NCBI RefSeq assembly: GCF_014930365.1
Contig: NZ_JABXWI010000005.1
Coordinates: 186,001 to 250,000, forward strand
Direction: 5' to 3'
DNA: 64,000 nt
DNA from: Streptomyces caniscabiei
GTDB lineage: Bacteria; Actinomycetota; Actinomycetes; Streptomycetales; Streptomycetaceae
The notes beneath the pieces are model-generated. The model searched no databases. It had not been told where the DNA came from and worked only from the letters and a program-made list of their open reading frames with translations. Both the position numbers and the translations under genes were made by a program. Each line of letters starts with the position of its first letter. Position 1 is the stretch's first letter. Shown piece by piece: positions 26,341 to 59,720 of the stretch.

Positions 26341-26346
26341 GGCCCC

Positions 26347-27762: not shown

Positions 27763-27847
27763 CGGCGCGTCCCAGCCTTCCGCGAGCTGCCCGCATACGA
27801 CGTTTCGCACGACCCTCTCACGACATTCCCCTCTGGAGATGGCGATC

Positions 27848-28509: not shown

Positions 28510-29770
28510 GGTGACGGTGACCGGGTTCGGCGTGCGGACGGCGTTCGGGGTGGGCTCGGACGTCCTGCGGCGCGGTGTCTTCGCCGGTGTCCCCTCCTTC
28601 GCCCCCACCACCCGGTTCGACACCGGCCCGTACCGCACCCCGATGGCCGGCGCCGCCCCCGACGGCCCCGACGCGGTGGAGCACTGGGCCCTGCGTCCCG
28701 CCCTCGCGCACTGCGGGGCGGAGGCCCTCGACATGGCGGGGCTGCCCACGGGCACCGAGGCGGCGGTTCTGCTGGGCATCGCGGGCGACTGCACGAGCAT
28801 CACGCGGTACTGGCGGGAGGCGGCCGCGCCGGGGGCCGACGCCGGGCACGGCGGTCCCGGCGACGGGGCTCCCGGGGTTCCCGGGGTGACGGGATCGGTC
28901 ATGACGGCGGGGACGGCGGGAGCGGCGGGGACGGCGGGGGCGGCCACGCCGGCCGACGCCGTCCCCGCGCATCTCGCCGAGTCGCTGGCCCGAGGCCTCG
29001 GGCTGACCGGGCCCCGGCTCACCTTCACCAACGCCTGTGTGGCCTCCGCCGCCGCGATCATCCACGCCTGCCGGCTGATCTCCTCCGGGCGGACCGAGGT
29101 CGCGGTGTGCGCCGGTGGCTACCTCGTGGAGGAGGAGACCTTCGGGAAGTTCGACTCGGGGCGGGCGCTGTCGCGTGACGGCGTGGTACGGCCGTTCAGC
29201 GCCGACCGGACCGGCCTGCTGCTCGGCGACGGGGTCGCGGCGGTCGTGCTGGAGTCCGCCGAGCACGCGCGGCGGCGCGGGGCCCGGCCGCTGGCGGGTG
29301 TCGTCGGGTGGGGCGCGGCAACCGACGCCCACCACATCGCGCAGCCGCATCCGGACGGCGTCGGCCTGGCCCGCGCGACCCGGCAGGCGCTGCGGCTGGC
29401 CGGGGACCCCGACGGATCGGGCCTCGGCTATGTCAACGCCCACGGCACCGGCACCAAGTACAACGACGGCGCCGAGACCCGGGGACTGCGTGCCGCGCTG
29501 CGCGAGCGGGCCGAGTCGATCCCGGTCAGCTCCACCAAGAGCACCACGGGCCATCTCCTGGAGGCCGCCGGAATCGTGGAGTTCGTGATCACGATGCTGG
29601 CCCTGACGGAGGGCGTGCTGCCGCCGACCGCCAACTTCACGCGGGCGGACCCGGAGTGCGACCTGGACTACGTGCCGAACCGGCCCCGGCAGACCGACCT
29701 CCGCCGGGCCCTCACCATCAACGCCGCCTTCGGGGGCGCCAACACCGCACTCGTCCTGGAGCGACCGTGA
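28490..29770 (+). CDS. Beta-ketoacyl synthase (type II, active)
   Basis: The 426-aa ketosynthase of the KAS I/II fold keeps the triad: C183 in FTNACVASAAAI, H318 in YVNAHGTGT and H355 in STTGHLLEAAG, with K350 in STKSTTGH. The Cys context (NACVAS instead of TACSS) is unusual. Residues 112-157 are a Gly/Ala-rich stretch that replaces the conserved loop before the active site. The GTG at 28490 is preferred, with GTG 28499 as an alternative. It should condense a malonyl extender with an acyl or aroyl carrier. The next gene encodes a ketosynthase-like partner and overlaps by 4 nt (GTGA). Confidence 0.9.
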   Translation: MSAVTGEVTVTGFGVRTAFGVGSDVLRRGVFAGVPSFAPTTRFDTGPYRTPMAGAAPDGPDAVEHWALRPALAHCGAEALDMAGLPTGTEAAVLLGIAGDCTSITRYWREAAAPGADAGHGGPGDGAPGVPGVTGSVMTAGTAGAAGTAGAATPADAVPAHLAESLARGLGLTGPRLTFTNACVASAAAIIHACRLISSGRTEVAVCAGGYLVEEETFGKFDSGRALSRDGVVRPFSADRTGLLLGDGVAAVVLESAEHARRRGARPLAGVVGWGAATDAHHIAQPHPDGVGLARATRQALRLAGDPDGSGLGYVNAHGTGTKYNDGAETRGLRAALRERAESIPVSSTKSTTGHLLEAAGIVEFVITMLALTEGVLPPTANFTRADPECDLDYVPNRPRQTDLRRALTINAAFGGANTALVLERP

Positions 29771-30663
29771 CGACGACGGACAGGGGCACGAAACCCACAT
29801 CGACGAGGGGGGACGAGCCCCCGGCGGCGGACGCGGGCGCATCCCCGTCGGCCGGCCCCAGCGAGGCCGGGCCGCCCGGCAAGGGGGCGGCGCCGACCGG
29901 CTCAGGGGCGGTACCGCGTTCGCCGCTCGTGGTGCTGGCCGCCGCCACCGCGACCCACGGCACCGGGCGGGACGGCGACATTCCGCTGCCGCGCCTGCCG
30001 GGGTTCGTGGAGTCGGCGTTCAGCCCGCTGGTGTACGAGGTCGCCGCGCGGTGTCTGACCGAGCGGCCGGCGGACCACTCCCGTACGGCCGTCGCGCTCG
30101 CGAGCCTGATGGGCGACACCACCACGGCCGATCTGGCGAGCCGGCGCGTGGTCTCGGGCCGGGTCCACAATCCGCTGCTGTTCATGCAGGCCACCCCCAA
30201 CTCCGTGCTGGGGCACCTCAGCCGCGAGTTCGGGATCACCGGCCAGATGTTCAGCGTGTCGACGTTCGACGACCCGGTGACCGAACTGCTGGACATGGCC
30301 GACCTCCTCCTGGAGGACCCGGAGCTGGACCAGGTGCTGGTGGTGGGCGTGGAACTGGGCGGCGGCGAGCGGTGGGCCGCCGTGCACCGGGAGCTGTCCG
30401 CCGAGGACGGCCGCCCGGTCCCGGACCTGCCCGCGTCCGCCGCCCTGGCGGCGGCCGTCCTGCTCGGCCGCCCTGACTCCGGCGCGGACTCCGGGTCCGG
30501 CGCCCCCATGACCATCGGTCCGACGGAGACGTTCGCCGGGGCGCGCTCGGCGGCGGCTCCGCACGCCGGCAGCGTGCAGGGCCTGTTCGACCTGGCCGAC
30601 GCGCACCGGCGGCTGCCGCGGGACACGGAACGAGACGAGACGGAGAGCCATGCTCATCAGTAG
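29767..30663 (+). CDS. Short ketosynthase-like protein, chain-length-factor type
   Basis: The 298-aa protein starts with about 58 disordered residues. The remainder resembles only the N-terminal thiolase half of a ketosynthase (PLPRLPGFVESAFSPLVYEVAARCL, RVHNPLLFMQATPNSVLGHL, DQVLVVGVELGGG). At the place of the catalytic cysteine it reads FSVSTFDDP, with no Cys, and the C-terminal half with the two His residues is absent. Similar truncated partners occur in aryl polyene and highly reducing type II clusters. I infer that it pairs with the active ketosynthase. GTG start overlaps the upstream stop by 4 nt. Confidence 0.75.
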   Translation: MTTTDRGTKPTSTRGDEPPAADAGASPSAGPSEAGPPGKGAAPTGSGAVPRSPLVVLAAATATHGTGRDGDIPLPRLPGFVESAFSPLVYEVAARCLTERPADHSRTAVALASLMGDTTTADLASRRVVSGRVHNPLLFMQATPNSVLGHLSREFGITGQMFSVSTFDDPVTELLDMADLLLEDPELDQVLVVGVELGGGERWAAVHRELSAEDGRPVPDLPASAALAAAVLLGRPDSGADSGSGAPMTIGPTETFAGARSAAAPHAGSVQGLFDLADAHRRLPRDTERDETESHAHQ

Positions 30664-32422
30664 GCAGGAGCGGGCGCGGATCTGCTCCGACACGGAACTC
30701 GGCGCCGGCAACGTCCTGCGACGCCTGGCCGCCTACGAACGCCCCCTCGACGAACCGGTGTTGCACACCGACGGCACCTGGCGCGCACCGGACGGCAGCC
30801 GACCCGACGTGCTGACACTCGGGCAGTTGTACGAGGTGGTCGAGGCCTACGCGGGCTGGTACGCGGCCCACGGGGTGCGTCCCCGCGACCCGGTGGCCAT
30901 CCACTCCTCCTGCGCCGCCGAGTTCGCCGTGAACTTCCTGGCGCTGACGTCGATCGGGGCCGTGCCGTCGTTCGTCAACGGCAACCTCTCGCCGGAGATC
31001 GCGCGGGAGTACGTCCGCCGCCAGGGCGCGGTGGGCGCCTTCACGGACGAGGCACACCGCGAGGTGCTGGCCGAGGACGCGGCGGGGGGAGGAGACGGTT
31101 CCGGAGGGCACGGTCTCGGGCTCCGTTTCCGGCTGACCGCCCCCGACGTCCGCCCCGAGCACCGCGCGTCGCTTCCGCCGTCGTACCCCTACCGGCACGA
31201 CCCCACCGACCCGGTGCTCATCTCCCACTCCTCCGGGACGACCGGTCTGCCGAAAGGGGTGCCGCACACCCATCGGACGCTGATGTACGCCCAGCTGCAC
31301 CGGCTGCGGTTCTCGACCGGCGCCGACATGGAGCGCACGCTGGTGGGGCTGCCGGGCGCGCACAACGCGATGGTGGCGACCCTGCTGTACTGCCTGCTGC
31401 TGCGCACCGACCTCAAGCTGCTCTCCAGTCAGCGCGGCACGGATGTGCTGGACGCGATCGAGGCGTTCCGGCCGACCACCGTGCTGGCCTTCGCCGGGAC
31501 CTTCGGCGAGATGGCGGCGGAGGATCTGACGGCGCGCGATCTGTCCAGCGTGCAGGTGTGGTTCAACACGGGGGACGCGGCGCACGAGGCTCACATCCGG
31601 GCGCTCGTCCAGCACGGGAGCCGCATCGAGATCCGGCGCGACCTCAGCCGTGTCCGGGTCGAGGGATCGGTCTTCGTGGACGGGCTCGGTTCCTCGGAGG
31701 CCGGCTACTCGGTCTTCCACAACCGGCACACCAAGGACACCTCCGCCTACTCCCGCTGTGTCGGCAAGCCGATCAGCTTCGCCGAGGCCGCCGTGCTCGC
31801 CGAGGACGGCACCCAACTGCCGCCCGGGCAGATCGGCCGGCTGGGCCTCAAGTCGCCCACGCTGACGCCCGGTTACTGGAACGACTCGCTGACCTGGAAC
31901 CGGATGCGGCTCGGCGGCTACTGGCTCACCGGCGACCTTGCCCACCAGGACGAGGAGGGCAACTTCTACCACCTCGACCGGGCCCCGGACGCCATCCGCA
32001 CCCCGGCGGGCATCGTCTTCAGCACCCGCACCGAGGAACTACTCCTGGCCGCGCTGCCGGAACTCAGCGACTGCACGGTGGTCGGGGTCGCCCCCGACGG
32101 CGTACGCGCGGACTGGGACGGCGACGGCGAGGCGGAGGCGTACGCCCTGCTCCAGCTCGCCGACGCGGGCGGAGCCGGCGAGGAGCGGAACGGGCCGCGG
32201 GACGACGGGCAGCGGACCGGGACTGCGGTCGACGAGGAGTGGACCGGGCGGGTCAACACGGTGCTGACGGCCGCCGGGTTCCCGCCGGTGACCCGGGCCC
32301 TGCGGATGGAGGCCGGTGACGTGGCCAAGGGTGCCACCGGCAAGGTTCTCAAACGAGTGATGCGCGACCGGTTCGCCGCCGACACGGCCGCCGGGGTCGC
32401 CGCCGAGGAGCAGCACGCATGA
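30650..32422 (+). CDS. Second adenylate-forming enzyme (acyl-CoA synthetase type)
   Basis: The 590-aa ANL enzyme has A3 HSSGTTGLPKGVPHTH near residue 190, A5 GLGSSEAGYS near 345, A7 YWLTGDLAHQDEEGNFYHLDR near 424 and A10 lysine in KGATGKVLKRVMRDR near 565. It is full length and unlike the first ligase of the cluster, so it probably activates a different acid: an extender, a side chain, or the product before transfer or reduction. The substrate cannot be read. It overlaps the ketosynthase-like gene by 14 nt and the next gene by 4 nt. Confidence 0.85.
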   Translation: MLISRQERARICSDTELGAGNVLRRLAAYERPLDEPVLHTDGTWRAPDGSRPDVLTLGQLYEVVEAYAGWYAAHGVRPRDPVAIHSSCAAEFAVNFLALTSIGAVPSFVNGNLSPEIAREYVRRQGAVGAFTDEAHREVLAEDAAGGGDGSGGHGLGLRFRLTAPDVRPEHRASLPPSYPYRHDPTDPVLISHSSGTTGLPKGVPHTHRTLMYAQLHRLRFSTGADMERTLVGLPGAHNAMVATLLYCLLLRTDLKLLSSQRGTDVLDAIEAFRPTTVLAFAGTFGEMAAEDLTARDLSSVQVWFNTGDAAHEAHIRALVQHGSRIEIRRDLSRVRVEGSVFVDGLGSSEAGYSVFHNRHTKDTSAYSRCVGKPISFAEAAVLAEDGTQLPPGQIGRLGLKSPTLTPGYWNDSLTWNRMRLGGYWLTGDLAHQDEEGNFYHLDRAPDAIRTPAGIVFSTRTEELLLAALPELSDCTVVGVAPDGVRADWDGDGEAEAYALLQLADAGGAGEERNGPRDDGQRTGTAVDEEWTGRVNTVLTAAGFPPVTRALRMEAGDVAKGATGKVLKRVMRDRFAADTAAGVAAEEQHA

Positions 32423-32988
32423 GCACGCACACCGACGCCGAGGGCGTCAACCACCGCGCCCGGGCCGGGGAGGCGTACCGGCTGTGGTGGCAGCACGACG
32501 CCAACTGGTACCAGGGGGTGGCCGCCCGGTTCGGGCAGGAGGTCGCGAACGAGATCAACGCGGAGGCGATGGGGAAGGTCGCCCTGCACGTCGGACAGCG
32601 GGTCGCCCGGCTGCACGGGCCCCTGCCCGACACCGGCGACGGCCGCAAGGACCTGGAGGAGCTGCGCCGCCGGTACGACGACTGCGGCGACCGGATGTTC
32701 CCGCCGGAGCTGCGCAACGCCTCCACCGAGGTCGAGGACGACGACCTGATCGTCCTCACCCTCCGGCGGAACTTCGCGATCACCATGGTCCGGATGGCCG
32801 GTTCGCTGGAGGGCTACCGCTGCCCGTGCACCGCCGTCCACGCCGGCTGGTCCGAGGGCCTCGGTGTGACGCTCACGGAGAACCGGGCCGAGACCTGTCT
32901 GCGCGACGGCGACAAGGCGTGCCGCCTCCTCATACGGGCCGCCCCGGCCGCCGCACCCGCCGCCGTCGTCCCCGGATCGGAGGGCTGA
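32419..32988 (+). CDS. DUF6125/V4R-like protein
   Basis: The 189-aa soluble protein has an N-terminal helical part with WWQHDANWYQGVAARFGQE, as in DUF6125/thiazoline-hydrolase-like proteins. The C-terminal part has cysteines spaced as in V4R-type domains (CPC near residue 137, then ETCLRDGDKACRLLI). Families of this kind bind small molecules or metals and some act as hydrolases, but no activity can be assigned. Its tight coupling (4-nt overlap upstream, 3-nt gap downstream) makes a biosynthetic or ligand-handling role in the 3,4-AHBA cluster likely. Confidence 0.6.
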   Translation: MSTHTDAEGVNHRARAGEAYRLWWQHDANWYQGVAARFGQEVANEINAEAMGKVALHVGQRVARLHGPLPDTGDGRKDLEELRRRYDDCGDRMFPPELRNASTEVEDDDLIVLTLRRNFAITMVRMAGSLEGYRCPCTAVHAGWSEGLGVTLTENRAETCLRDGDKACRLLIRAAPAAAPAAVVPGSEG

Positions 32989-32991
32989 GCC

Positions 32992-33912
32992 ATGCGCGTA
33001 CTCGTCGCCGGAGCCACCGGCGTGGTCGGACATCCGCTGGTGGGCGCGTTGCGAGCACGGGGCCACCACGTCGGCGTCCTGGTGCGGCAGGGGTCGCGCG
33101 CCCGGGCCCCGGAGGCGGACGAGGTGGTGGTCGCCGACGCCCTGGACCGCGAGGCCGTGCTGTCGGCGGTGTCCGCCGCCCGGCCCGAGGTGGTCGTCCA
33201 CCAGATGTCCGCCCTGCGGCTGCTGCGGGACGACCCGCCGGAGGCCTTCGCCCGCACCGCGCGCCTGCGCGTCGAGGGCACGGCCCATCTGATCGAGGCG
33301 GCCCGCGCGGCCGGCACACGCCGGCTGGTCGCCCAGTCCATCGCCTTCGCCGCCGCCCCGGCCGGCGCCCCGGTCCTCGACGAGGACGCGCCGCTGTACG
33401 TCGACGCCCCCGACCCCGGCTGGGCCTCGACCGTACGGGCCGTCGCCGAGCTGGAACGGCAGGTGACGGGCAGCGGCATGGAAGGCGTGGTGCTGCGCTA
33501 CGGCACGCTGTACGGCCCCCGCACGGCGTACGCCCGTACCGGCGCGACCGCGCTGTCCGTGCAGGCCGGCCGGCTGCCGCTGCCGGGCAGCGGGGCCGGG
33601 ATCATATCGTTCCTGCACGTCGAGGACGCGGTGGGAGCGGCCGTGACCGCCGTCGAGTCCGACGCGGGCGGGGTGTTCCATGTGACGGACGACGATCCGG
33701 CGCCCGCCGCGCAGTGGCTGCCGCACTTCGCCCGGATGCTCGCCGCGCCCTCCCCGCGCACGGTCCCGGCGGCCCTCGCGCCCCGGCTCCTCGGCTGGTT
33801 CATGAGCCACCAGCTCACCTCGGCGCACGGCGCCGCCAACGACCGGGCCCGTACGGCCCTGGGCTGGAAGCCGACCAGACCGAGCTGGCGCGACGGGCTG
33901 GGCCAGGAGTGA
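32992..33912 (+). CDS. Atypical NAD(P)-binding epimerase/reductase-family protein
   Basis: The 306-aa protein has the Rossmann motif GATGVVGH at residues 7-14 and the extended-SDR layout (VVHQMSALRLL, YGTLYGPRTAYARTG, ISFLHVEDAVGA). The usual catalytic Y-x-x-x-K is not seen where expected; the stretch reads WASTVRAVAELE. It is therefore either an atypical dehydrogenase/epimerase, as in the GATG-type NmrA-like group, or a non-catalytic binder. It is tightly linked to its neighbours upstream, and 136 nt with a tandem repeat separate it from the exporter gene. Confidence 0.8.
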   Translation: MRVLVAGATGVVGHPLVGALRARGHHVGVLVRQGSRARAPEADEVVVADALDREAVLSAVSAARPEVVVHQMSALRLLRDDPPEAFARTARLRVEGTAHLIEAARAAGTRRLVAQSIAFAAAPAGAPVLDEDAPLYVDAPDPGWASTVRAVAELERQVTGSGMEGVVLRYGTLYGPRTAYARTGATALSVQAGRLPLPGSGAGIISFLHVEDAVGAAVTAVESDAGGVFHVTDDDPAPAAQWLPHFARMLAAPSPRTVPAALAPRLLGWFMSHQLTSAHGAANDRARTALGWKPTRPSWRDGLGQE

Positions 33913-33959
33913 CGCGCGCCGATGTCGCCCTCGCCGTCGGCGGGAGCGCGCGCACCCCG

Positions 33960-34013
33960 GTGACCGGCCGCCGCGCCGTGACCGACCGCCGCGCCATGAC
34001 CGGCCGCCGCACG
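33960..34013 (+). repeat. Three 18-bp tandem repeats upstream of the exporter gene
   Basis: Copies at 33960-33977, 33978-33995 and 33996-34013 share the pattern RTGACCGRCCGCCGCRCS, with one or two differences each. They lie in the 136-nt gap before the MFS gene. They may bind a regulator or be slippage products. Confidence 0.8.
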
Positions 34014-34048
34014 ACCGGACGCGACCGTGGGAGAGACGGAGGCACCCG

Positions 34049-35725
34049 ATGACCGCCACGAGCCTGACGGCTGGGAACTCCTCGGCCGGCCCGGCCCGCG
34101 GTCGGCTCGTCCTCCTCGTCGTGGTCTGCGCGCAGATGCTGATCTGGCTGGACACCTCGATCCTCAACGTCGCCGTCACCACGCTCGCCGACCCGGTCGA
34201 GGGCCTGGGCGCCACCCCCGGCGAACTGGAGTGGGTGGCGAGCGCCTACACCCTGGTCGTCGCCGGCACCCTCTTCGCGGGCGGCGCGCTCGCCGACCGC
34301 TTCGGGCCCCGGAACACGCTCGTCGCCGGGCTCGCGCTGATCGGCGTGGCCTCCGGTGCGGGCGCGTTCGTGGACAGCCCGGAGTGGCTGATCGTGGCCC
34401 GTGTCTTCATGGGCGCGGGCGCCGGCCTGTTGATGCCGGCCACGCTGACGGTCATCGTGCAGAGCACCCCGGAGGAGAAACGCACCCGGGCGATCGCGAT
34501 CTGGAGCTCGTCGAGCGGTCTCGGCGTGGCCATCGGCCCGGTCGCGGGCGGGGCGCTGCTCAGCCACTTCTGGTGGGGCTCGGTGTTCCTGGTCAACGTG
34601 CCGATCGTGGCGCTGTGTCTGCCGGCGGTCCTGGCCTTCGTCCCCGACCTCGGCGGCTCCCGACGCCGGGTGCTCGACCTGCCCGGCCTCCTTCTGTCGG
34701 TGCTCGGCCTGGGCGGGGTGGTCTACGGCATCATCGAACTCGGCGGCGGCAGCGCCTGGTACGGGCCGCACGTGCTGCTGCCCCTGGTGCTGGGCGGTGT
34801 CGTGCTGGTCGTCTTCGTCGCAGGTCAGCGCAGGTCCAGTGCGCCCAGTCTGGATCTGCGGCTCTTCCGGCAGCCCGGCTTCACGGCCGGCAGCGTGGTG
34901 CTGCTGATCGCCTTCATGGCGCTGGCCGGTCACCTGTTCTACGCGGCCTTCTATCTCCAGGGGCCCCGGGGCCTCTCCCCCGCCGACGCCGGAACCGTCA
35001 TGATCGCCGCCGCGATCGGCATCGTCCTCGGCAGCCAGGCGTCTCCGGCGCTGAGCCGTCGGCTGTCGGCCCGCTGGACCGTCGCGGCCGGCGTCCTCGC
35101 CACCGCCGCCACCTACGTCGCGTACGCCTGGCTCGACGGGGGGACCCCGCTGTGGGTGGTCGCCGCGCTGCTGTGGATCCAGGGCTTCGGCATGGGCCTG
35201 GTCGGGACGCCGGTCACGGCCGTGATGATGCGCGGGGTGCCGCCGCAGCTCGCGGGCGCCGGTTCCGCCGTCAACAGTGTCACCCGGCAGGTCGGCGGCA
35301 CACTCGGGGTGGCCATGGCCGGGTCGATCCTCTCGGCCGTCTACCGGGACCGGATGGCCGACGCCGAACTGCCCGGCCCCGCACAGGGCTTGTCCCCCTC
35401 CGCCGGGGAACAGGCCCGCACCTCCGCCGAGGCCGCCCGCGCCCTGGCCGACTCGCTGAACCTGCCCGGCCTGGCGACCGCGGCCGACCGCGCCTTCCTC
35501 GACGCCATGTACGCCGCCACGCTCTCCGTCGCCGCCCTCGCCCTCATCGGCTGCGCGGTCGCGGTGACAGGCCTGCGCGACCGCTCGGCCCCCGAGGACC
35601 GGGAACCCGCCGGGTCCCGGGACCGCACCCGGCCGGAGGCACCCTCCACACGACCCCAGGACCGCACACCACCGCAGGAGCCCGCCCAGCCGTCGGACCC
35701 GGCACCGAGAGGAAACGCACGATGA
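34049..35725 (+). CDS. DHA2-type MFS exporter (14 TM)
   Basis: The 558-aa protein has about 14 hydrophobic segments and WLDTSILNVAVTTLADP near residue 30, the motif D1 of 14-TM drug:H+ antiporters (EmrB/QacA type). A long hydrophilic, Pro/Arg-rich C-terminal tail follows the last TM at about residue 500. It probably exports the cluster's product and so provides self-protection. GGAGG lies shortly before the ATG. The stop overlaps the FabG-like gene by 4 nt. Confidence 0.9.
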   Translation: MTATSLTAGNSSAGPARGRLVLLVVVCAQMLIWLDTSILNVAVTTLADPVEGLGATPGELEWVASAYTLVVAGTLFAGGALADRFGPRNTLVAGLALIGVASGAGAFVDSPEWLIVARVFMGAGAGLLMPATLTVIVQSTPEEKRTRAIAIWSSSSGLGVAIGPVAGGALLSHFWWGSVFLVNVPIVALCLPAVLAFVPDLGGSRRRVLDLPGLLLSVLGLGGVVYGIIELGGGSAWYGPHVLLPLVLGGVVLVVFVAGQRRSSAPSLDLRLFRQPGFTAGSVVLLIAFMALAGHLFYAAFYLQGPRGLSPADAGTVMIAAAIGIVLGSQASPALSRRLSARWTVAAGVLATAATYVAYAWLDGGTPLWVVAALLWIQGFGMGLVGTPVTAVMMRGVPPQLAGAGSAVNSVTRQVGGTLGVAMAGSILSAVYRDRMADAELPGPAQGLSPSAGEQARTSAEAARALADSLNLPGLATAADRAFLDAMYAATLSVAALALIGCAVAVTGLRDRSAPEDREPAGSRDRTRPEAPSTRPQDRTPPQEPAQPSDPAPRGNAR

Positions 35726-51342: not shown

Positions 51343-52014
51343 CTAGCGCGTCTCCAGGAACGTCAGCACGGCCAGTACCCGGCGGTGGTCGTCCGGTTCC
51401 TCGGGCAGTCTCAGCTTCCCCAGGATGCTCCGCACATGCTTCTCCACCGTCCCCTCGGTGACCCACAGCCGCCGGCCGATCCCCGCGTTGGACCGCCCCT
51501 CGGCCATCAGGCCGAGGACCTCCCGCTCCCGGTTGCTGAGCATCGACAGCGGGTCGTCACGTCGCTGCGCGGCGACCAGCTCCTGCACCAGCGACGGGTC
51601 CACCACCGACCCGCCGCGCCGGATCCGGTCCAGCGTCTCCAGGAACTCGTCCACGACGGTGATCCGGCTCTTGAGCAGATATCCGATGCTGCGCCCGCCC
51701 GCCAGCAGCTCCAGCGCGTCCTCGACCTCGACGAACGCCGACAGCACGAGGATCCCGACCGACGGGTACCGCTCCCGGATCTCCCGCGCGGCCTTCAGCC
51801 CCTCCGTGGACTGCGTCGGCGGCATCCGGATGTCGACGATGGCGATGTCCGGAAGCTCGTTCTCCACCAGCTCCATGAGTCCCGCGGCGTCACCGGCCTG
51901 ACCGGTCACCTCGTATCCGACGCGCTCGCAGAGGCTCGCCAGGCCCTCCCGCAGCAGCACGTCGTCGTCCGCGAGCACCACTCGTCCGCGCACCGGGTGC
52001 GTATCGGCCTCCAT
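51343..52014 (-). CDS. NarL/LuxR-type response regulator
   Basis: The 223-aa regulator has a receiver domain with acidic pocket LADDD (15-18), phospho-acceptor D61 in [10 protein letters not shown] and K in YLLKSR near residue 115, and a C-terminal LuxR HTH ([39 protein letters not shown] region, about 158-196). It lies 307 nt downstream of the sensor kinase gene in the same direction and is its likely partner. A 16-bp palindromic box lies 64-79 bp upstream of its start; the same box lies upstream of the receiver-only gene at 58134. Confidence 0.93.
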
Positions 52015-52321
52015 GGTCTCGGTCTCCCCCTTGCCCGACCTGTCCCGTTTGTCTCAACAGCCTGCCTGAACACGGTCTTACGGCTAGCCGGAAGCCTAGT
52101 TGGGGGCGGGCCGTGAAGACACCTGAACGTTTGGCCGCGATGCTCGAAGAAGCGCAGCCGCGGACGGCACCGGCGACTCTGACGAGAGACGGCGAGGCAT
52201 CCGCATGCCCGAGAGCCGGACGGCCGTCTCCGCCGTCCGATTCGACCGCCCGGAACGTACGCCCGTACCGAGTCCCGGACTCCCCCCTTTGAACGGGCCT
52301 CACCGCGTACGCTTCGGGCGG
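52015..52321 (-). other. Intergenic region between the response regulator and the sensor kinase
   Basis: These 307 nt separate two minus-strand genes. They hold the repeated regulatory box (52078-52093) and a small hairpin, CGGACGG (52217-52223) with CCGTCCG (52233-52239), 83 nt past the kinase stop, which may end the upstream transcript. No gene is credible here. Confidence 0.6.
52078..52093. promoter_or_regulatory. Shared palindromic box TTACGGCTAGCCGGAA, copy 1
   Basis: A 16-bp sequence with a perfect 10-bp palindromic core (CGGCTAGCCG). It is upstream of the LuxR-type regulator gene and is repeated exactly at 58084-58099. Confidence 0.7.
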
Positions 52322-55126
52322 TCACACGCGCGTCGCGACGGCCGTCGCGGCCTCCTCGGGCGGGGTCAGCGGCAGCCGCACGCTCAGCGTCGTCCCGCCG
52401 CCGGGCGGGCTGGTGACCGTCAACCTGCCGCCGATCGCTTCCACCCGGTCGATGAGCCCGATCAGTCCCGATCCCTTGTCGGGTTCGGCTCCCCCGACGC
52501 CGTCGTCCCGGATGAGCAGCTCCAGCACGCCCGCGCGTTCCTCCGCCGCGACCGTCACCACGCTCGCGCGCGCGTGCTTGACGGCGTTGGTGAGGCTCTC
52601 GGAGGTGACGTAGTACGCGGCCACCTCGACCTGTTCCGGGAAGCGGGTGCGGGCGAACCCGAGGTCGAGCTCCACGGGGACGGCGGAGCGGCGGGCCAGG
52701 GTACGCAGGGCGGGGCCCAGGCCGCCCTTGGAGAGGATGGAGGGGTGGATGCCCCGGGCGACCTGGAGCAGGTCCTGGAAGGCGTCGTCGAGACCCTTGG
52801 CCAGATGGTCCAGCTGCCGGGCGAGCTCGGAGGAGGGGTCGTCCACCAGGGTCTCCGTCATCCGCAGCTCCAGCTGGAGGGAGACCAGGCGCTGCTGGAC
52901 GCCGTCGTGCAGATCGCGTTCGATGCGGCGCCGCGAGGCGTCCCCGGCGGCGACCACGCGCGCGCGTGAGGCGGTCAGCTGGTCGCGGCTGTCGGCGTTG
53001 GCGATCGCGGTGGCGATCAGCGCGGTGAAGTCGGCGAGCCGGGACTCGGCACCGCCGGGCAGCGGATCGGTCAGCGAGGCCGCCACGACCACCCCCCAGA
53101 TCCGGCCGTCGACGACGATGGGGGCGCCCACGGCGGTCTCCGACCGGACCACGCACCGGGTCCGGGCCACCTCGTCGATGGTCCTGGCGGCCGCCTCCCG
53201 GCGGGTCAGGCAGGCGGCTTCGACTTCGTCCACGCGCGCGTGCGCGACCCCGAGGACCTTGACGCCGCCGTCGGGCTCGTACCGGATGACGGCCGAGGCC
53301 GTGCCCAGCAGCGACGCGACCTCCTCCGCCACCGTCGCGAACACCTCGGCCGGCGGCACCCCGCGCGCGACCGCGGTGGCGACCCGGCGCAGCGCGGCCT
53401 GTTCGAGCGCGGCCCGGCGGCTCTCGGTCACATCGCGGGCGGCGGCGTAGATGAGGCCCTCCTCGTGGACCGACCGGGCGCTCCACTGGAGCCAGCGTTC
53501 GGTGCCGTCGGGCCGGAGGTACCGGTTCTCGAACTCGGCGACCTCGGCGCCGCTCGCCAGCAGCGCGACGGCCGCCCGGGTGCTCTCCCGGTCGTCCTCG
53601 TGGACGAAGTCGAGGAACGGCCGGGAGGTCAGGGTCCGGACCGGATAGCCCAGGGTGCGTTCGAAGGCCGGGTTGACGCGCTTGAAGTAGCCGTCGACGC
53701 CGCTGATGCAGAGCAGGTCCAGGGAGAGGTTGAAGATGCCCTCCAGTTCCCGTTCCGCCCGCCGGCGCCGGCCGTGGGCCGCGGCGAAGGACGCCATCGT
53801 GCCGTTCATGCCGCCCAGCAGCTGGGCCCAGGTGCCGTCGAAGGAGTCGACGTCGGCGCGGTGTCCGAGCCGGCCCGCGTCGATCGCGGTGTTCATGTCC
53901 CGGATCTCGCCCGCCAGCCGCTCGCTGGTCACCCGCAGCTCGCGGAACGTGTCGGCGACGTCGCCGAGTTCGTCGCGCCCCGCGTAGCGGATGTCGTACG
54001 AGAGGTCGCCGTCCGAGAGGGCGCGGGCGCCCTCGGAGACCTCGCCGAGGGGGCGGGTGATCGAGCGGCACAGGGCGAGCGCGAGGAAGGTGACGAGGGC
54101 CAGGACGACGAGGCAGATCGTCAGTTCGATGAAGGTGCGGGTGCTGGTGGTGCGCAGGTCCCGGTGCGCGGTGTCGTCCAGTTGCCTGGCGGCCCGGTCG
54201 CGGATGCCGCGCAGGGCGTCGGTGTAGTCCTCGGACTCGCCTAGCCAGTCGGCGTACGAGGGCCAGTCGGCGGGCTGGGGATCGGGGTCGGCGACCAGGT
54301 CGCGGGCCGCGCGGACCGCGCGTCCGGGGGCCTGGAACCTCGCGGCGTGCAGTTCGGCCTTCAGCTCGTCCGAAGCGGTCTGCTGGAACGCCCTGAGCTG
54401 GGCCTTCTCCAGTTCGGTCCAGCGGCCCGCGGCGGTGGCGTGTCCGTCGCCGGGCGCGTGGAAGAGGATGGCGAGCTCCGCGCGTTCGCTCTCGGCGGCG
54501 GCGACGGCCCGCAGCATCGCGATGTGGGCGTCCGCCGCCCGGCCCGCGGCCCGGGTGGGCCGCCCGGATTCGAGGTCGGCGACGATGTCGAGCACCTTGT
54601 TCTCGATCGCCTCGTACCGCTGGGCGACGGTCGGCGCCTCCAGGGACCCGGTGCCCGTCTGGACCCTGAGGGCGTGCAGCTGGCGGCGCACGGAGTCGAG
54701 GATCCCGGCGTCGTCGGACTCCGTGCGGCCGACGGTCTCCTCGAAGGCCCGGCGCAGCGCGTGGTCGGTGGCCCGCTGGGCCTCGGTCCGCTCGCGCAGG
54801 GCGTCCGGTGCGGCACTCAGCCGGGCTTCCACCGCGGCGATCCGCTCCCGGGCGACGGCGTCGGAGACCTCGCTGATCTCGAAGGACACCTCGATCGCGG
54901 TGTCGAAGTCGCGCAGGGTGCGGGCCTCACGCCCCTGGTCGACGGCGGCGAACGCCGTGACGGCCAGCAGGACGGTGACCGGCAGCAGGACGAGCAGCGT
55001 CAGCTTGGGACCGACGCGCAGCCGGGACAGGAACGGGACGGTGTCCACGGCCGCGGCGCGGCGGGGCGCCGGCTTCGTCTCGGGGCGCGGCGCGGGGGCC
55101 GGTCGGCTGGGCGGTGGGCGGAGCAC
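52322..55126 (-). CDS. Multidomain sensor histidine kinase (NIT-HAMP-PAS-GAF-HisKA_3)
   Basis: The 934-aa protein has TM1 at about residues 40-62 and TM2 at about 333-355, which enclose a 270-residue helical sensor region like nitrate/nitrite-sensing NIT domains. A HAMP linker (ITRPLGEVSEGARALSDGDL), a PAS domain (NLSLDLLCISGVDGYFKRVN), a GAF-type domain and a HisKA_3 module (IERDLHDGVQQRLVSLQ, phospho-His in LHDG) follow, then an ATPase domain with DGVGG and GLIGLIDRVEAIGG. It likely phosphorylates the LuxR-type regulator downstream. Two binding-protein genes lie directly upstream (9-nt gap), suggesting that a bound ligand is reported to the sensor domain. Confidence 0.92.
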   Translation of the reverse strand: MLRPPPSRPAPAPRPETKPAPRRAAAVDTVPFLSRLRVGPKLTLLVLLPVTVLLAVTAFAAVDQGREARTLRDFDTAIEVSFEISEVSDAVARERIAAVEARLSAAPDALRERTEAQRATDHALRRAFEETVGRTESDDAGILDSVRRQLHALRVQTGTGSLEAPTVAQRYEAIENKVLDIVADLESGRPTRAAGRAADAHIAMLRAVAAAESERAELAILFHAPGDGHATAAGRWTELEKAQLRAFQQTASDELKAELHAARFQAPGRAVRAARDLVADPDPQPADWPSYADWLGESEDYTDALRGIRDRAARQLDDTAHRDLRTTSTRTFIELTICLVVLALVTFLALALCRSITRPLGEVSEGARALSDGDLSYDIRYAGRDELGDVADTFRELRVTSERLAGEIRDMNTAIDAGRLGHRADVDSFDGTWAQLLGGMNGTMASFAAAHGRRRRAERELEGIFNLSLDLLCISGVDGYFKRVNPAFERTLGYPVRTLTSRPFLDFVHEDDRESTRAAVALLASGAEVAEFENRYLRPDGTERWLQWSARSVHEEGLIYAAARDVTESRRAALEQAALRRVATAVARGVPPAEVFATVAEEVASLLGTASAVIRYEPDGGVKVLGVAHARVDEVEAACLTRREAAARTIDEVARTRCVVRSETAVGAPIVVDGRIWGVVVAASLTDPLPGGAESRLADFTALIATAIANADSRDQLTASRARVVAAGDASRRRIERDLHDGVQQRLVSLQLELRMTETLVDDPSSELARQLDHLAKGLDDAFQDLLQVARGIHPSILSKGGLGPALRTLARRSAVPVELDLGFARTRFPEQVEVAAYYVTSESLTNAVKHARASVVTVAAEERAGVLELLIRDDGVGGAEPDKGSGLIGLIDRVEAIGGRLTVTSPPGGGTTLSVRLPLTPPEEAATAVATRV

Positions 55127-55135
55127 GGCGGGGCC

Positions 55136-56539
55136 TCACGGACCGGTCGGGGGGTAGTGACCGTGGTCCGCCAGATCCTTGTCGACGGCGCGCACCGCCT
55201 CGTCGAGGGCGGGCCGTACCGCCGCTCCCTTCATGATCTTCGCGAACGCCTCGGCGAAGGCGTCGGTGATCGCCGGGTAGGCGGGGGTCTGCGGCCGGGG
55301 GCGGGCGGCGCCGCCCCGCAGCTGCTCTATGTAGAGGCGCGCGGGCCCGCCCTCGGCGAACGCGTCGGTGCGTTCGACGGCGGTGCCGGTGGCGGGGATG
55401 GCGCCGTTGACGTCGGTCATCCGCAGGACTTCGTCGGGGCGCAGCAGGAAGGACAGGAAACGCCAGACCGCGTCGCCGTCGGCCGCGCCCGCGGGCACGC
55501 CCCACTGCCAGGAGCCCATCCCGGTGGCGCTGCCCGTGCCGAAGTCGGGCAGCGGCACGATCGCCACGTCGCCGGGGTGGGCCTCGGTGTAGCGCCCGTA
55601 CCACCAGTGGCCGGTCCAGGAGACGGGACTGCGGTCCTTCTGGAAGGCCTCGGCGTCCTTGTTCTCGTCCACGTATCCCGCCTTCACCCAGCCCTGCAGC
55701 GTCGTCAGCGCCTCGACCGTCCGCGGCCCGTTGAGCACTCCGTCGGCCGTCCGGTAGGTGGAGCGTTCGATCAGGTCGCCGCCCGCCGACCAGACGGCCG
55801 GCGCGAAGCCGTACGTCCCCCATTCCGTGCCGGCCCACGGCAGCTGGAGGTCGAGGGGCCTGTCGTAGCCCAGGGCGCGCAGTTTCTTCAGGATGCCGGT
55901 GAACTCGTCGGCGGTCCAGGCGTCGTCGACGCCCTTCGGGACGCGTACGCCCGCTTCCTTCAGCACCGACGGCCGTACGTACAGGCCGAGTCCGGAGTCG
56001 AACGTGCCGAGGCCCCACAGCCGGCCGCGGTAGGTGCCCTGTTCGAGGACGGACGGGAGCAGGTCCGCGCGCAGGGCCTCCGGGACGCAGGAGTCGATGG
56101 GCCTGAGATGGCCGGCCCAGGCGTGGCTGAACAGCTTCGGGGCGTCGAAGTCGAGCAGGTCGGGCAGTTCCCCGTCGGCGGCGGCCGCGCGGACGAGGTC
56201 CTCGTAGTCGCCCTCCGGGACGTCGACCAGACGGACCGTCACCTCGTCCTGGGCGGTGTTGAACGCCTCGACCTGGGCGCGTACGGCGTCCAGTTCACCG
56301 CGCGCGGACGGTTCGTGGAACCACATCGTGATCTGCGCGGGGGCGTCGATCCGTCCGTCGCAGGTCGCGTCGGCGGCCCGCCGCGGGCGCTCGCCGTCGT
56401 CATCGCCCGCCTCGCAGCCCCCGAGCAGCAGGGTCATGCAGAGCGCGAGCGCCGCCCGGGCGCGAAGGGGCGTCCGCCGGACGCGGAGGCGTCCGGTCGT
56501 CCGGGGAGCGCTCCGCCGGGGCCGGGCGGCGCGGGTCAC
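55136..56539 (-). CDS. Extracellular solute-binding lipoprotein A
   Basis: The 467-aa precursor has an Arg-rich N-terminus, a hydrophobic segment and the lipobox LLLGGC (lipid-attached Cys near residue 42). The rest is a two-lobe ABC-type substrate-binding fold (ITMWFHEPSARGELDAVRAQ, LDFDAPKLFSHAWAGHLRPID, GSWQWGVPAG). It is a paralogue of the adjacent protein B and shares a 64-bp identical DNA tract with it. No permease or ATPase gene lies nearby. It precedes the kinase gene by 9 nt, so it may be a sensor partner instead of a transporter subunit. Ligand unknown; sugars are common for this family. Confidence 0.88.
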   Translation of the reverse strand: MTRAARPRRSAPRTTGRLRVRRTPLRARAALALCMTLLLGGCEAGDDDGERPRRAADATCDGRIDAPAQITMWFHEPSARGELDAVRAQVEAFNTAQDEVTVRLVDVPEGDYEDLVRAAAADGELPDLLDFDAPKLFSHAWAGHLRPIDSCVPEALRADLLPSVLEQGTYRGRLWGLGTFDSGLGLYVRPSVLKEAGVRVPKGVDDAWTADEFTGILKKLRALGYDRPLDLQLPWAGTEWGTYGFAPAVWSAGGDLIERSTYRTADGVLNGPRTVEALTTLQGWVKAGYVDENKDAEAFQKDRSPVSWTGHWWYGRYTEAHPGDVAIVPLPDFGTGSATGMGSWQWGVPAGAADGDAVWRFLSFLLRPDEVLRMTDVNGAIPATGTAVERTDAFAEGGPARLYIEQLRGGAARPRPQTPAYPAITDAFAEAFAKIMKGAAVRPALDEAVRAVDKDLADHGHYPPTGP

Positions 56540-57930
56540 GGACCGCTCTTCGGGTAACCGTCGTGGGCGGCGAGATCCTGGTCGATGGCCTCGACCGCGT
56601 CATCCAACGTCTTCTCGACGGGTGCTCCGGAGAAGACGATGTCGGCGACGGCGTGCGAGAAGGCGACGGTGACCGCCGGGTACGCCGGGGTCTGCGGCCT
56701 GGGCCGGGCGACACCGCCGCGCAGCTGCTCGATGAACAGCCGCTCCGCGCCGTCCTCGTCGTACAGCGGGGAGAGCTTCACGGCTCCCTCGGTGCCGGGG
56801 ATCGCGCCGTTGGCCTCGCTCATCCGGGCCACCTGCCCGGGTCGCAGCAGGTACTCCAGGAAGCGCCACACCGCGTCGCCGTCGGCGTCCCCGGAGGGGA
56901 TGCCCCACTGCCAGGAGCCCATGCCGGTGACGGTGCCCGTGCCGAAGTCGGGCAGCGGCACGATCGCCACGTCGCCCGGGTGCGCCTCGCTGAACTCCCC
57001 GTACTTCCAGTGCCCCATCCAGGAGATGGGCGTGCGGCCCTTCACGAAGGCGCTCTTGTCCTTCTCCCGGTCCCTGTCGACGTAGCCCTCCTCCACCCAG
57101 CGCTGCATGGTGGTGAGCGCCTCGACGGACTCGGGGCTGTTGAGGAACCCGTCGGCCGTGCGGAACTCCACGGGGTCGATGAGGTCGCCGCCGGCGGACC
57201 ACACGGCGGGTGCGAAGGCGTAGGTGTTCCACTCGTCGGCGGTCCTGGAGTCGATGAAGTTCAGGTCGAGCGGTGCCTCGTAGCCCGCCTCGCGCAGGGT
57301 GCGCAGGATCCCGGTCAGCTCGTCGGCGGTCCAGGCGTCGTCGACGCCCTTCGGGATGCGCACGCCCGCTTCCTTCAGCACCGACGGCCGTACGTACAGG
57401 CCGAGTCCGGAGTCGAACGTGCCGACCCCCCACAGCCGGCCGTCGTAGGTGCCCTGTTCCCGGACGGAGGGCAGCAGGTCCTTCCTGGTCCTCTCGGGGA
57501 CGCAGGAGTCGATCGGCCTGAGCGTGCCGGACCAGGCGTAGCTGTAGAGGTTCGGGCCGTCGAAGTCGAGCAGGTCCGGCAGATCGCCGCTGGCCGCCGC
57601 GGACAGCACCAGCTCGGTGTACGGGCGCTGCTCGGGCAGGGTGACCAGCTCGACCCGTACCTGCTCCTGGGCTCCGTTGAACTCCTTGACCTGGCGCTGG
57701 AGCGTGGTCTGCTCGCCGCTCTGGCCCGCGTGGAACCACATCGTGATGTGGGCGGTTCCGTCGATCCGGCCGTCGCAGGTCGTGTCGCCCGCCGCCTTGT
57801 TCTCCTCGTCCACCCGGCCGTCGCCGTCGCCGGAGCCACATCCGGCCAGGAGCAGCGCGACAGCCGCCACGCCCGACATCAGGGCACGGCGGACAGGACG
57901 TTTTCCGAGGTCCCGGCATTGCGTGTTCAT
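56536..57930 (-). CDS. Extracellular solute-binding lipoprotein B
   Basis: The 464-aa precursor has the signal MSGVAAVALLLAGCGSG with lipobox LLAGC and the same two-lobe fold as protein A, with long matching stretches such as SGLGLYVRPSVLKEAGVR and GDVAIVPLPDFGTG. I use the ATG at 57930; an upstream in-frame start lacks support. The stop overlaps gene A by 4 nt. It is the first gene of the apparent B-A-kinase operon and is divergent from the receiver-only regulator. No transport partners are encoded nearby. Confidence 0.88.
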   Translation of the reverse strand: MNTQCRDLGKRPVRRALMSGVAAVALLLAGCGSGDGDGRVDEENKAAGDTTCDGRIDGTAHITMWFHAGQSGEQTTLQRQVKEFNGAQEQVRVELVTLPEQRPYTELVLSAAASGDLPDLLDFDGPNLYSYAWSGTLRPIDSCVPERTRKDLLPSVREQGTYDGRLWGVGTFDSGLGLYVRPSVLKEAGVRIPKGVDDAWTADELTGILRTLREAGYEAPLDLNFIDSRTADEWNTYAFAPAVWSAGGDLIDPVEFRTADGFLNSPESVEALTTMQRWVEEGYVDRDREKDKSAFVKGRTPISWMGHWKYGEFSEAHPGDVAIVPLPDFGTGTVTGMGSWQWGIPSGDADGDAVWRFLEYLLRPGQVARMSEANGAIPGTEGAVKLSPLYDEDGAERLFIEQLRGGVARPRPQTPAYPAVTVAFSHAVADIVFSGAPVEKTLDDAVEAIDQDLAAHDGYPKSGP

Positions 57931-58083
57931 CGCACACCCCCACTCGACCGGACGGCACGGCCCCCAGGGCGACGACATGCTACTCCTCGTGTCGCGTGCG
58001 ATTCCCTGAGTGAGGTGAACCCCTCGATCCGGCACAGGACTTCAGCACATTCCCGCTGACGGGTGTCCGGCGGCGACGACACT

Positions 58084-58099
58084 TTACGGCTAGCCGGAA
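58084..58099. promoter_or_regulatory. Shared palindromic box TTACGGCTAGCCGGAA, copy 2
   Basis: Exact copy of the box at 52078-52093, 34 bp upstream of the receiver-only gene and 153 bp upstream of the lipoprotein B start, so it can serve both divergent genes. Confidence 0.7.
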
Positions 58100-58133
58100 T
58101 GTATGCACCTGACCCCCTTGGAAGGCTGTGCCC

Positions 58134-58508
58134 ATGTCCATGCGCTGTCTCATCGTCGATGACAGTGCCCGGTTCCTGGAGGCCGCCCGTACGCTGCTGG
58201 AGCACGACGGCGTGCACGTCGTCGGTGTGGCGTCCACGGGCGCCGAGGCACTGGCACGGGCCGGGGAACTGGCCCCGGATCTGGTCCTGCTGGACATCGA
58301 CCTCGACGGCGAGAGCGGACTGGAGCTCGCGCCGAGGCTCGCGCGCACCGCTGCCCCCGTCATCGTGCTGATCTCCACGCACGCGCCGGACGACGTCCAG
58401 GAACTCGTGGCGACCACTCCCGCCCGGGGTTTTCTGCACAAGTCGAAGCTCTCGGGACAGGCGCTGCGGGCCCTGTCGGGGCCCGATCGCGGGGCGTCGG
58501 AGCATTGA
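58134..58508 (+). CDS. Receiver-only response regulator
   Basis: The 124-aa protein is a single receiver domain with DD (9-10), phospho-acceptor D54 in LVLLDIDLDG, a Ser in IVLIST and K in FLHKSK near residue 103. It ends shortly after the last helix, so there is no DNA-binding domain. I use the ATG at 58134, with GGAAGG eight bases upstream; a GTG at 58128 would add two residues. It may act as a phosphate sink or a protein-protein switch for the divergent kinase. Its promoter has the same box as the LuxR-type regulator. Confidence 0.9.
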   Translation: MSMRCLIVDDSARFLEAARTLLEHDGVHVVGVASTGAEALARAGELAPDLVLLDIDLDGESGLELAPRLARTAAPVIVLISTHAPDDVQELVATTPARGFLHKSKLSGQALRALSGPDRGASEH

Positions 58509-58736
58509 GGAACCCGGCGACGGTGTCCGGCCATGTCACGCGGCAGGTGTTGTCGGGACCTGACCGACACGCTTCAATGCGGAGGAACTCGGAGCGAGGA
58601 ACGCGGCCGTACGGATGTGAAGGCGGACGGCCGCCCAGGGTTCCTGGAGCCCCGAGCGTCCGCCGGGCGCCCGATCGGCACGCGCGGTCCCGAGCACGCG
58701 TCGCGCACTCGTCATCGTCTACGGAAAGGTCCCTGC

Positions 58737-59720
58737 ATGCGGCACGCCACAGAGCACGCGGACGTCGCGGCGGTCACGGACGTCGCAGCCGTCGCGGACG
58801 TCGCCACGGCGGAGCTGGAGTCGGTCCTGCGGGGCGGCCCCTTCCATGTCGCCCTGCGCGCCGCGATCGCCGCCCGCGGGCTGCCGCTGCAGCGCGTGCA
58901 GCACCATCTGACGCGCCACGGGGTCAAGGTCGGTGTCACCAGCCTCAGTTACTGGCAGCAGGGCGCCCGGCGTCCGCAGCGTCCCGAGTCGCTGCGGGCG
59001 GTGCGGGCCCTGGAGGAGATCCTGCAACTGCCGGACGAGTCGCTGATCCGGCTGCTCGCGCGGGCCGACGAGCAGTCCGGTCCGCAGCGCCCCGCCGGCC
59101 GCTCGTACCGCTCGGTGGTGGAGGCCTCCGGCGTTCTCCGGCGGCTCCTCGCCGAGCTGGACGTGCCGCTCGACGGCGGGGTGCACACCGTCGGCCACCA
59201 CGAGCGGGTCCGGATCGGGGCCCGTCGCGAGCTGCTCGGCCGCGAGTCCCAGCAGATCGTGCGCGCCCACAGGGACGGGGTGGACCGCTATGTGGCCGTC
59301 CACCACGGCGATCCGGGCTGCGCGCCGGAGCGGACGGCCGTCCGTGCCCTGGAGAACTGCCGCAGCGGACGCGTGCGCTGGGACCCGGACACCGGTGTCC
59401 TGGTCGCCGAGCTCCTCTTCGACACGCGGCTGCGCAGCGGCGACACCCACCTCTTCCGCTACGGCTTCGACGACGGCACGGGCGGTGTCTGCACCGAGTA
59501 CGTCCGCGCCTTCCGCTCCACCGGCGGCCAGTACGCCCTCCAGGTCCGGTTCGACGACCGTGCCCTGCCCCTGCGCTGCCACCGTTTCAGCCAGCACTCC
59601 GCCGCGGCCCCGCGCGGCGGCCGGCAGAACCTCGCCCTGAGCGGCCTCCACCGCACGGTGCACCTCGTCGAACCCCGGGCGCGGACGGGGATCGTGGGCA
59701 TCGGCTGGGAGTGGGAGTGA
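58737..59720 (+). CDS. HTH-domain protein of unknown function
   Basis: The 327-aa protein has an Xre-like helix-turn-helix stretch at about residues 30-100: ALRAAIAARGLPLQRVQHHL and then VGVTSLSYWQQGARRPQRPES. The N-terminus repeats DVAAV-type units (ADVAAVTDVAAVADVATAEL). The C-terminal 200 residues look like a beta-rich domain and I do not recognise them. GGAAAGG lies seven bases before the ATG; an earlier in-frame start (58533) lacks a ribosome site. The 228-nt gap before it belongs to no clear gene. Probably a regulator, but the target is unknown. Confidence 0.72.
   Translation: MRHATEHADVAAVTDVAAVADVATAELESVLRGGPFHVALRAAIAARGLPLQRVQHHLTRHGVKVGVTSLSYWQQGARRPQRPESLRAVRALEEILQLPDESLIRLLARADEQSGPQRPAGRSYRSVVEASGVLRRLLAELDVPLDGGVHTVGHHERVRIGARRELLGRESQQIVRAHRDGVDRYVAVHHGDPGCAPERTAVRALENCRSGRVRWDPDTGVLVAELLFDTRLRSGDTHLFRYGFDDGTGGVCTEYVRAFRSTGGQYALQVRFDDRALPLRCHRFSQHSAAAPRGGRQNLALSGLHRTVHLVEPRARTGIVGIGWEWE

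Follow-up and report, generated by a model that had tools for sequence, protein, structure and literature searches.

Two transporter-type binding lipoproteins encoded beside a sensor kinase, with no transporter adjoining, raise the question of whether such proteins serve uptake or signaling. This arrangement lies in the window analyzed here, a 64,000-nucleotide stretch of the Streptomyces caniscabiei genome (contig NZ_JABXWI010000005.1, positions 186,001 to 250,000). The initial annotation took the lipoproteins to be likely ligand sensors for the kinase and viewed an extra receiver as a phosphate sink or second output. We followed the locus across 392 Streptomyces genomes and beyond the genus.

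Locus Architecture

The genes and candidate operators of the module are as follows.

51343 to 52014, minus strand: RR, a LuxR/NarL-type response regulator (receiver plus GerE HTH; Pfam)
52078 to 52093: candidate operator palindrome, one mismatch to TTCCGGCTAGCCGGAA, 63 bp before RR (sequence search)
52322 to 55126, minus strand: sensor histidine kinase, 934 residues (Pfam, hydropathy)
55136 to 56539, minus strand: SBP-A, SBP_bac_8 lipoprotein, the duplicated copy (Pfam, tree, alignment)
56536 to 57930, minus strand: SBP-B, SBP_bac_8 lipoprotein, the more constant SBP; the ORF extends to 58035, with a conserved Met at 57930 (Pfam, tree)
58084 to 58099: candidate operator palindrome in the divergent region between receiver and SBP, 28 bp before the receiver ORF (sequence search)
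58128 to 58508, plus strand: receiver-only response regulator, 126 residues; start at GTG 58128 or ATG 58134/58140 (Pfam)

Pfam scanning assigned Response_reg and GerE domains to RR, SBP_bac_8/SBP_bac_1 to both lipoproteins, and Response_reg alone to the divergent receiver protein, and all domain calls of the initial annotation were borne out. Lipoboxes were read by eye as LLGGC in SBP-A and LLAGC in SBP-B; the two proteins are about 64% identical. The module is flanked by uvrC (start near 51274, by eye) and uvrA (60973 onward). On the plus strand, the receiver gene is followed by an HTH-like gene, recognized by eye, and then by pfkB, all between uvrC and uvrA. Neither a permease nor an ABC ATPase was found by Pfam among the seven genes between uvrC and uvrA, in line with the initial annotation, which reported neither at this locus.

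The locus had also been described as a single directional block with one divergent gene. Four genes do share a strand and the receiver gene does diverge from them, but the block is not tight. SBP-B and SBP-A overlap by 4 nt, SBP-A ends 9 nt from the kinase gene, and a gap of 307 nt then separates the kinase gene from RR. A palindrome copy of its own precedes RR, which probably forms a separate transcription unit.

By Pfam and alignment, RR combines a receiver bearing a phosphorylatable Asp with a GerE HTH, which fits the NarL/LuxR class. Its receiver residues D16, D17, D61, S92, and K115 are invariant in 28 of 28 aligned rows, as are D11, D12, D56, S83, and K105 of the receiver-only protein in 30 of 30; both alignments include a duplicate pair (L013/L079). 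The receiver match in genome G128 contains one TGA, and its residues 1–119 were aligned.

The HTH-like gene (58533 to 59720, plus strand) likely starts at 58734, and its HTH look was judged by eye only. Its product matched nothing in Pfam (E 0.1) or NCBIfam (E 0.01). At four other loci (L065, L066, L070, and L120), a LacI-like gene, also read by eye, lies between the HTH-like gene and pfkB; the window lacks it and has a gap of about 60 bp at this place. Elsewhere in the window, positions 24317 to 35725 (plus strand) hold a small biosynthetic cluster encoding a DeoC-like aldolase, a 3-dehydroquinate synthase II, two AMP-ligases, a carrier protein, a ketosynthase, an epimerase, and an MFS protein. 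An aldolase of this kind paired with 3-dehydroquinate synthase II is known from 3-amino-4-hydroxybenzoate pathways.

Distribution across Streptomyces

Searching with SBP-A and scoring four candidates in each genome, we found SBP homologues at 60% identity or more in 20 of 392 Streptomyces genomes; 17 more genomes match SBP-A at E 1e-90 with identities of just 40–45%. The divergent receiver gene adjoins the SBP gene in all 20 genomes. The kinase gene follows next after the SBP in 18, and the remaining two (G139 and G183) reach a contig end there; in G139, the kinase end, RR, and uvrC were found on another contig. Compared across Streptomyces, the locus thus keeps the same order and orientations in all 20 SBP genomes as far as contigs reach. 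The nearest named relatives of the window by SBP are also Streptomyces, and tandem SBPs are present in all four with SBP identity above 80% (L012–L015: S. europaeiscabiei, S. scabiei 87.22, Streptomyces sp. MNU76, and S. stelliscabiei). Because the order and orientation recur in the 20 genomes and in these four relatives, the arrangement is more than chance. The SBPs of L013 and genome G295 are identical, so these two are probably the same strain.

The arrangement of two binding proteins, one kinase, and two receivers had been singled out as unusual. The lipoprotein pair is present in the window, but it is not the defining state of the module: 13 of the 20 genomes carry one SBP, six carry two, and G314 carries one plus a broken second copy.

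The extra receiver does belong to the system. Against its presence in 20 of 20 SBP genomes, a receiver of at least 56% identity occurs in 4 of the 372 genomes lacking the SBP (G189, G235, G299, and G205; five weaker matches besides), its phosphorylation residues are kept in every row, and it stays with RR and a kinase elsewhere. All nine of these loci were retrieved. G189, G235, and G205 carry RR, the receiver, and a NIT kinase in the absence of an SBP (NIT found by scan in L088 and by alignment in the others). Other sensors also occur among the retrieved loci, from which alone the distribution of the kinase is known. The kinase of G299 (L087) is GAF-HisKA_3, that of G144 is DUF4118-GAF, with a G234 kinase of the same length and start, and those of G111 and G020 are CHASE3-HAMP, just below the Pfam cutoff in L121. 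RR, receiver, and kinase recur together in L119, L121, L089, L090, and L087 with CHASE3-HAMP, DUF4118-GAF, or GAF sensors (L090 was left out of the domain scan). Since this trio recurs with no SBP or with other sensors, the unit is RR-kinase-receiver, to which SBPs were added in one lineage, and the receiver looks integral to it.

The 18 kb retrieved from genome G291 (L120) lack RR, kinase, and SBP but retain the uvr genes, pfkB, and the HTH-like gene. Between uvrC and the HTH-like gene, positions 8736–9224 of L120 match receiver residues 30–120 only, and the strict palindrome is absent from this genome; the stretch is an apparent relic of a lost module. The HTH-like gene and pfkB were candidates for module membership, but neither was accepted. 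Each is retained in G291, and the HTH-like gene, which adjoins the module in all 20 SBP genomes, is genus core, being present in 314 of 392 genomes.

Binding Lipoproteins and Their Importer Relatives

An SBP tree of 59 rows, which carries a long-branch warning, splits module SBPs from importer SBPs with support of 100/100. It omits L026, L033, and the broken L043 piece, which are short, and two rows identical to L013. The SBP-A clade includes the downstream copy of G011, itself a long branch (support 100/99). As SBP-A groups with this copy inside the module group, we probably see an old duplication whose A copy several lineages have since lost or broken.

Sequence and fold both bear on the ligand. 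SBP-A, SBP-B or single SBPs, and importer SBPs have 101 columns in common, including W65, W200, W234, W244, W278, W304, W308, and W342, and we infer that the ligand pocket lies among them. The DFDGP motif reads DFDAP in all nine SBP-A proteins, a change that suggests altered specificity. The predicted structure of SBP-B (pLDDT 82) found sugar SBPs as its best six fold matches, namely cyclic maltosyl-maltose, acarbose/maltose, sucrose, and maltose-binding proteins; its best 50 consisted of 25 sugar SBPs and 25 variants of one dinucleotide-binding SBP. Sequence matches of the SBP mostly carry sugar-binding names. Outside Streptomyces, the SBPs most similar to it (L016, 50% identity; L017, 45%) adjoin permease genes and GH32 enzymes, and L016 also has a LacI regulator. 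Based on the fold matches and on these importer relatives beside GH32 enzymes, a carbohydrate ligand is likely, and sugars are favored over amino acids. The two loci themselves, at 11326–14060 of L016 and 4046–6882 of L017, are GH32-linked importers, one from Desertimonas and the other from a Nitriliruptorales MAG.

A related importer also exists in the genome of the window (L011, on G000:C60). Its SBP is 43% identical, one permease was identified by domain scan, and a second permease, a LacI-like gene, and a GH32-like gene were read by eye from the ORF list. The lipoproteins might then be ordinary transport SBPs that feed a permease encoded elsewhere, such as that of L011, with the neighboring kinase coincidental or merely coregulated. 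The kinship with importer SBPs over 101 columns agrees with such a role. We consider it improbable, for the adjacency and order of SBP and kinase genes are conserved, and 8 of the 20 SBP genomes (G011, G314, G266, G040, G159, G068, G122, and G260) have no importer-type SBP relative elsewhere at E 1e-60. Six importer permeases used as queries also matched nothing in 28 module-type loci while matching the importer loci L011 and L019, a result still compatible with a permease that is promiscuous or distant. The sensing device carried by this small set of Streptomyces has SBPs that were apparently recruited from an importer.

Sensor Kinase and Its Ectodomain

The kinase consists of a transmembrane helix at about residues 42–62, a NIT domain at 88–316, a second transmembrane helix at about 332–353, and HAMP, PAS, GAF, HisKA_3 (H740), and HATPase_c domains (Pfam and hydropathy). 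NIT, which scores 55.9 bits against a Pfam cutoff of 24.9, is placed outside the cytoplasm between the two helices. H740 and the D next to it are kept in 24 of 24 kinase rows.

The NIT score also suits a different reading, in which the kinase itself would be the ligand sensor, with NIT detecting nitrate/nitrite or some other small molecule or with PAS/GAF doing the sensing, and the SBPs would be losable modulators or scavengers. Across the 24 kinase rows, E94, R95, and E214 never vary, and R215 is R in 19 and Q in 5; a separate list of ectodomain conservation omits L088. E214/R215 recall E175/R176 of NasR, predicted nitrate-pocket residues according to the accessible part of PMC7496416; the likeness is one of pattern only. 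A PDB profile search with kinase residues 30–420 returned no NasR alignment, with matches mainly to HAMP and transmembrane parts, and an AlphaFold model of the same residues (pLDDT 45, five sequences) was too poor for use. The Q at position 215 in five kinases speaks against this reading. So does the existence of NIT domains that do not bind nitrate, as noted in the portion of PMC13343842 at hand.

Lineages lacking the SBP bear on the same reading. In the kinase tree, which omits L087, L089, and L090 (partial kinases) and L079 (duplicate of L013), the kinases of G189 and G235 group with those of SBP-bearing G140 and G141 (100/100), inside the SBP-bearing genomes; that of G205 is a long outlier. 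G189 and G235 have no such SBP at E 1e-60 and retain kinase, RR, receiver, and palindrome sites. Because their kinases nest among those of SBP bearers, the SBP was probably lost in both, and the kinase can be retained without it. This retention would suit direct sensing by the kinase. The argument is softened by CuaDSR of Ruminiclostridium cellulolyticum, whose two-component part responds without its SBP (PMC10384115, as far as the text was available).

Divergence of the SBP, on the other hand, tracks NIT. After correction for uvrC, the partial r over 21 loci was 0.69 with NIT, 0.48 with the kinase core, 0.41 with PAS-GAF, and 0.41 with RR, and NIT remained the top correlate in 21 of 21 leave-one-out runs. 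Receiver divergence followed the kinase core most closely (0.66; top in 20 of 21 leave-one-out runs), with PAS-GAF next (0.62). After clade removal (n = 14), the SBP values were 0.52 with NIT and 0.36 with PAS-GAF. With close relatives and one divergent clade removed (n = 11), SBP-NIT and SBP-PAS-GAF fell to 0.35 and 0.33, and receiver-kinase core and receiver-NIT stood at 0.85 and 0.66. The permutation test ignores phylogeny, and the set omits L013 (duplicate), L071 (G183) and L082 (G139) (missing genes), L088, and the SBP-less L085 and L086. Since the co-variation shrinks when clades are removed, we take it as suggestive of contact between SBP and ectodomain and between receiver and kinase. 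Taken with the points above, direct sensing with dispensable SBPs appears unlikely to us.

Palindrome at the Module Promoters

The same 16-mer, the palindrome TTCCGGCTAGCCGGAA, lies before RR and in the intergenic region between receiver and SBP. The window holds only these two near matches and one match with three mismatches, against a chance expectation of 0.16 matches. With up to three mismatches, the palindrome precedes the receiver in 27 of 29 loci, at a distance of 28–29 bp in 26; in L064, the best site is 62 bp before the receiver and a second site is nearer. With up to four mismatches, it lies 53–114 bp before RR in 25 of 27 loci. L013, the duplicate of L079, was left out of this table, and the two loci that deviate, L089 and L090, are trio loci not placed between uvrC and uvrA. 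A palindrome shared by the module promoters is reported here as new; the initial annotation makes no mention of it.

The degenerate pattern TTNCNGCTAGCNGNAA was derived from the module sites themselves, so that only its rarity elsewhere counts as independent evidence. It is present in 30 of 392 genomes. Each of the 24 genomes whose receiver reaches 56% identity has it (two sites in 9, one in 15), and all sites listed in them fall inside the module. Among the other 368 genomes, 6 have it, with no module gene in the 3 kb around these sites. A reversed-pattern control hit 22 of 392 genomes, including one receiver genome; the six outside matches therefore do not exceed chance. The Fisher p of site versus receiver, about 4e-33, overstates the association, given the kinship among the genomes and the origin of the pattern in module sites. 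With this one strict pattern, the 24 receiver genomes have no site outside the module. Relaxing the search to three mismatches from the perfect palindrome gave forward/reversed counts of 40/38 in G000, 48/40 in G228, 53/61 in G253, and 50/49 in G108 (places listed in part). As these counts are near the reversed control, no remote regulon can be claimed, though a degenerate one may exist. Given the palindrome in 24 of 24 receiver genomes versus 6 of 368 others, RR probably controls mainly its own module.

The palindrome could instead be bound by the HTH-like protein (58734–59720), so that a regulator other than RR would couple the two promoters. Adjacency of its gene to the module in every SBP genome would permit this. 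We hold it to be very improbable, as the gene is genus core and the palindrome is nearly confined to receiver genomes. G291 keeps the HTH-like gene where RR, kinase, and SBP are missing from 18 kb, and no site was found there. In L087, conversely, sites flank RR and receiver with neither SBP nor HTH-like gene in the 18 kb retrieved, though G299 has an HTH-like gene elsewhere.

The palindrome was also considered as an RNA hairpin and rejected as such: the position pairs 3/14 and 5/12 are often unpairable, with position 3 being C in 49 of 54 sites and position 14 being T in 19 of 54. At 52015–52077 and in orthologues, a conserved GGCAGGCTGTT-like element lies shortly after the RR palindrome and is perhaps an RR promoter element.

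Comparison with Known Systems

In TorT-TorS and LuxP-LuxQ, the SBP docks on the kinase ectodomain and relays the signal; these systems differ from the module in having other SBP families, hybrid kinases, and a Gram-negative periplasm. XylFII-LytS likewise has an SBP family and a kinase class that differ from those of the module. It resembles the module in combining an orphan sugar-type SBP with a kinase. The accessible text of PMC10384115 names this system.

The nearest known system, CuaDSR, is described in that same text. Like the module, it has the gene for a lipoprotein sugar SBP, not the importer's own, beside genes for a two-TM kinase and a regulator. Its SBP binds the kinase and sharpens cellobiose sensing, and the kinase ectodomain is helical in a model. 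It differs in that its kinase is of class I and lacks any predicted domain in the ectodomain, its regulator is AraC-type, and it controls the importer operon (PMC10384115, in part). The module instead has a NIT-HAMP-PAS-GAF-HisKA_3 kinase, a LuxR regulator, an extra receiver, a duplicated SBP, and a palindrome at its own promoters only.

According to the portion of PMC8233162 available, nagB1 of Paenibacillus sp. FPU-7 also encodes an oligosaccharide SBP beside kinase and regulator genes, and its homologue NagB2 sits with permease genes elsewhere, as L011 does here. Unlike the module, that locus has one SBP, no receiver-only protein is mentioned in that portion, and the signaling role is a proposal. 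Among conservons of S. coelicolor, the NIT-domain CvnA resembles the module in having an extracytoplasmic NIT in a Streptomyces kinase-like protein whose ligand is often unknown. Conservons include roadblock, DUF, and GTPase genes (PMC13343842, in the part at hand), and none was found among the module genes scanned. Adjacent genes for SBP and kinase are not always linked in function: the accessible part of PMC11113362 reports that no binding of AgtS or AruS to an SBP was seen in P. aeruginosa despite neighboring genes. In the literature, searched by terms and not by locus tag, we recognized no paper on this Streptomyces locus.

Proposed Mechanism and Significance

Herein, our computations establish the architecture and conservation of the module, the duplication of its SBP, the near-confinement of its palindrome, and the co-occurrence of its receiver. 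By architecture, it is likely an SBP-dependent three-component system. With moderate confidence, we put forward as the best explanation a carbohydrate-sensing system of the CuaDSR kind, extended by a receiver and by autoregulation. SBP-B, and its diverged copy SBP-A, would bind an oligosaccharide-like ligand outside the membrane and dock on the kinase at the NIT ectodomain. After autophosphorylation on H740, phosphate would pass from the kinase to D61 of RR and D56 of the receiver. RR would then bind TTCCGGCTAGCCGGAA at the divergent SBP-kinase/receiver promoter and at its own promoter, closing an autoregulatory loop whose sign we can only infer. The receiver may compete for phosphate or carry a second output.

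A more tentative extension, possible but rather doubtful, is that the circuit is sealed. RR would have just two operators in a 10–11 Mb genome under the strict pattern, both in its own module, and would set the level of the sensor, and output would leave via protein contact or phosphate flow through the receiver. The sensor half, whether CHASE3, DUF4118, GAF, or NIT with up to two captured sugar SBPs or none, would be swapped before a constant kinase-RR-receiver core.

The class of mechanism is already known, and the module offers a good test case for it, with a nearly private palindrome, graded SBP states, and a constant extra receiver. The candidate operator could be used at once as a reporter for ligand screening, and the conserved receiver-only partner makes the role of a stand-alone receiver testable in a system of one kinase and two receivers. 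If the proposed reading is true, the locus would be a clear case of a Streptomyces kinase that takes its input from a sugar-binding protein captured from an importer, a capture seen in several evolutionary states: no SBP, one, two, and one broken.
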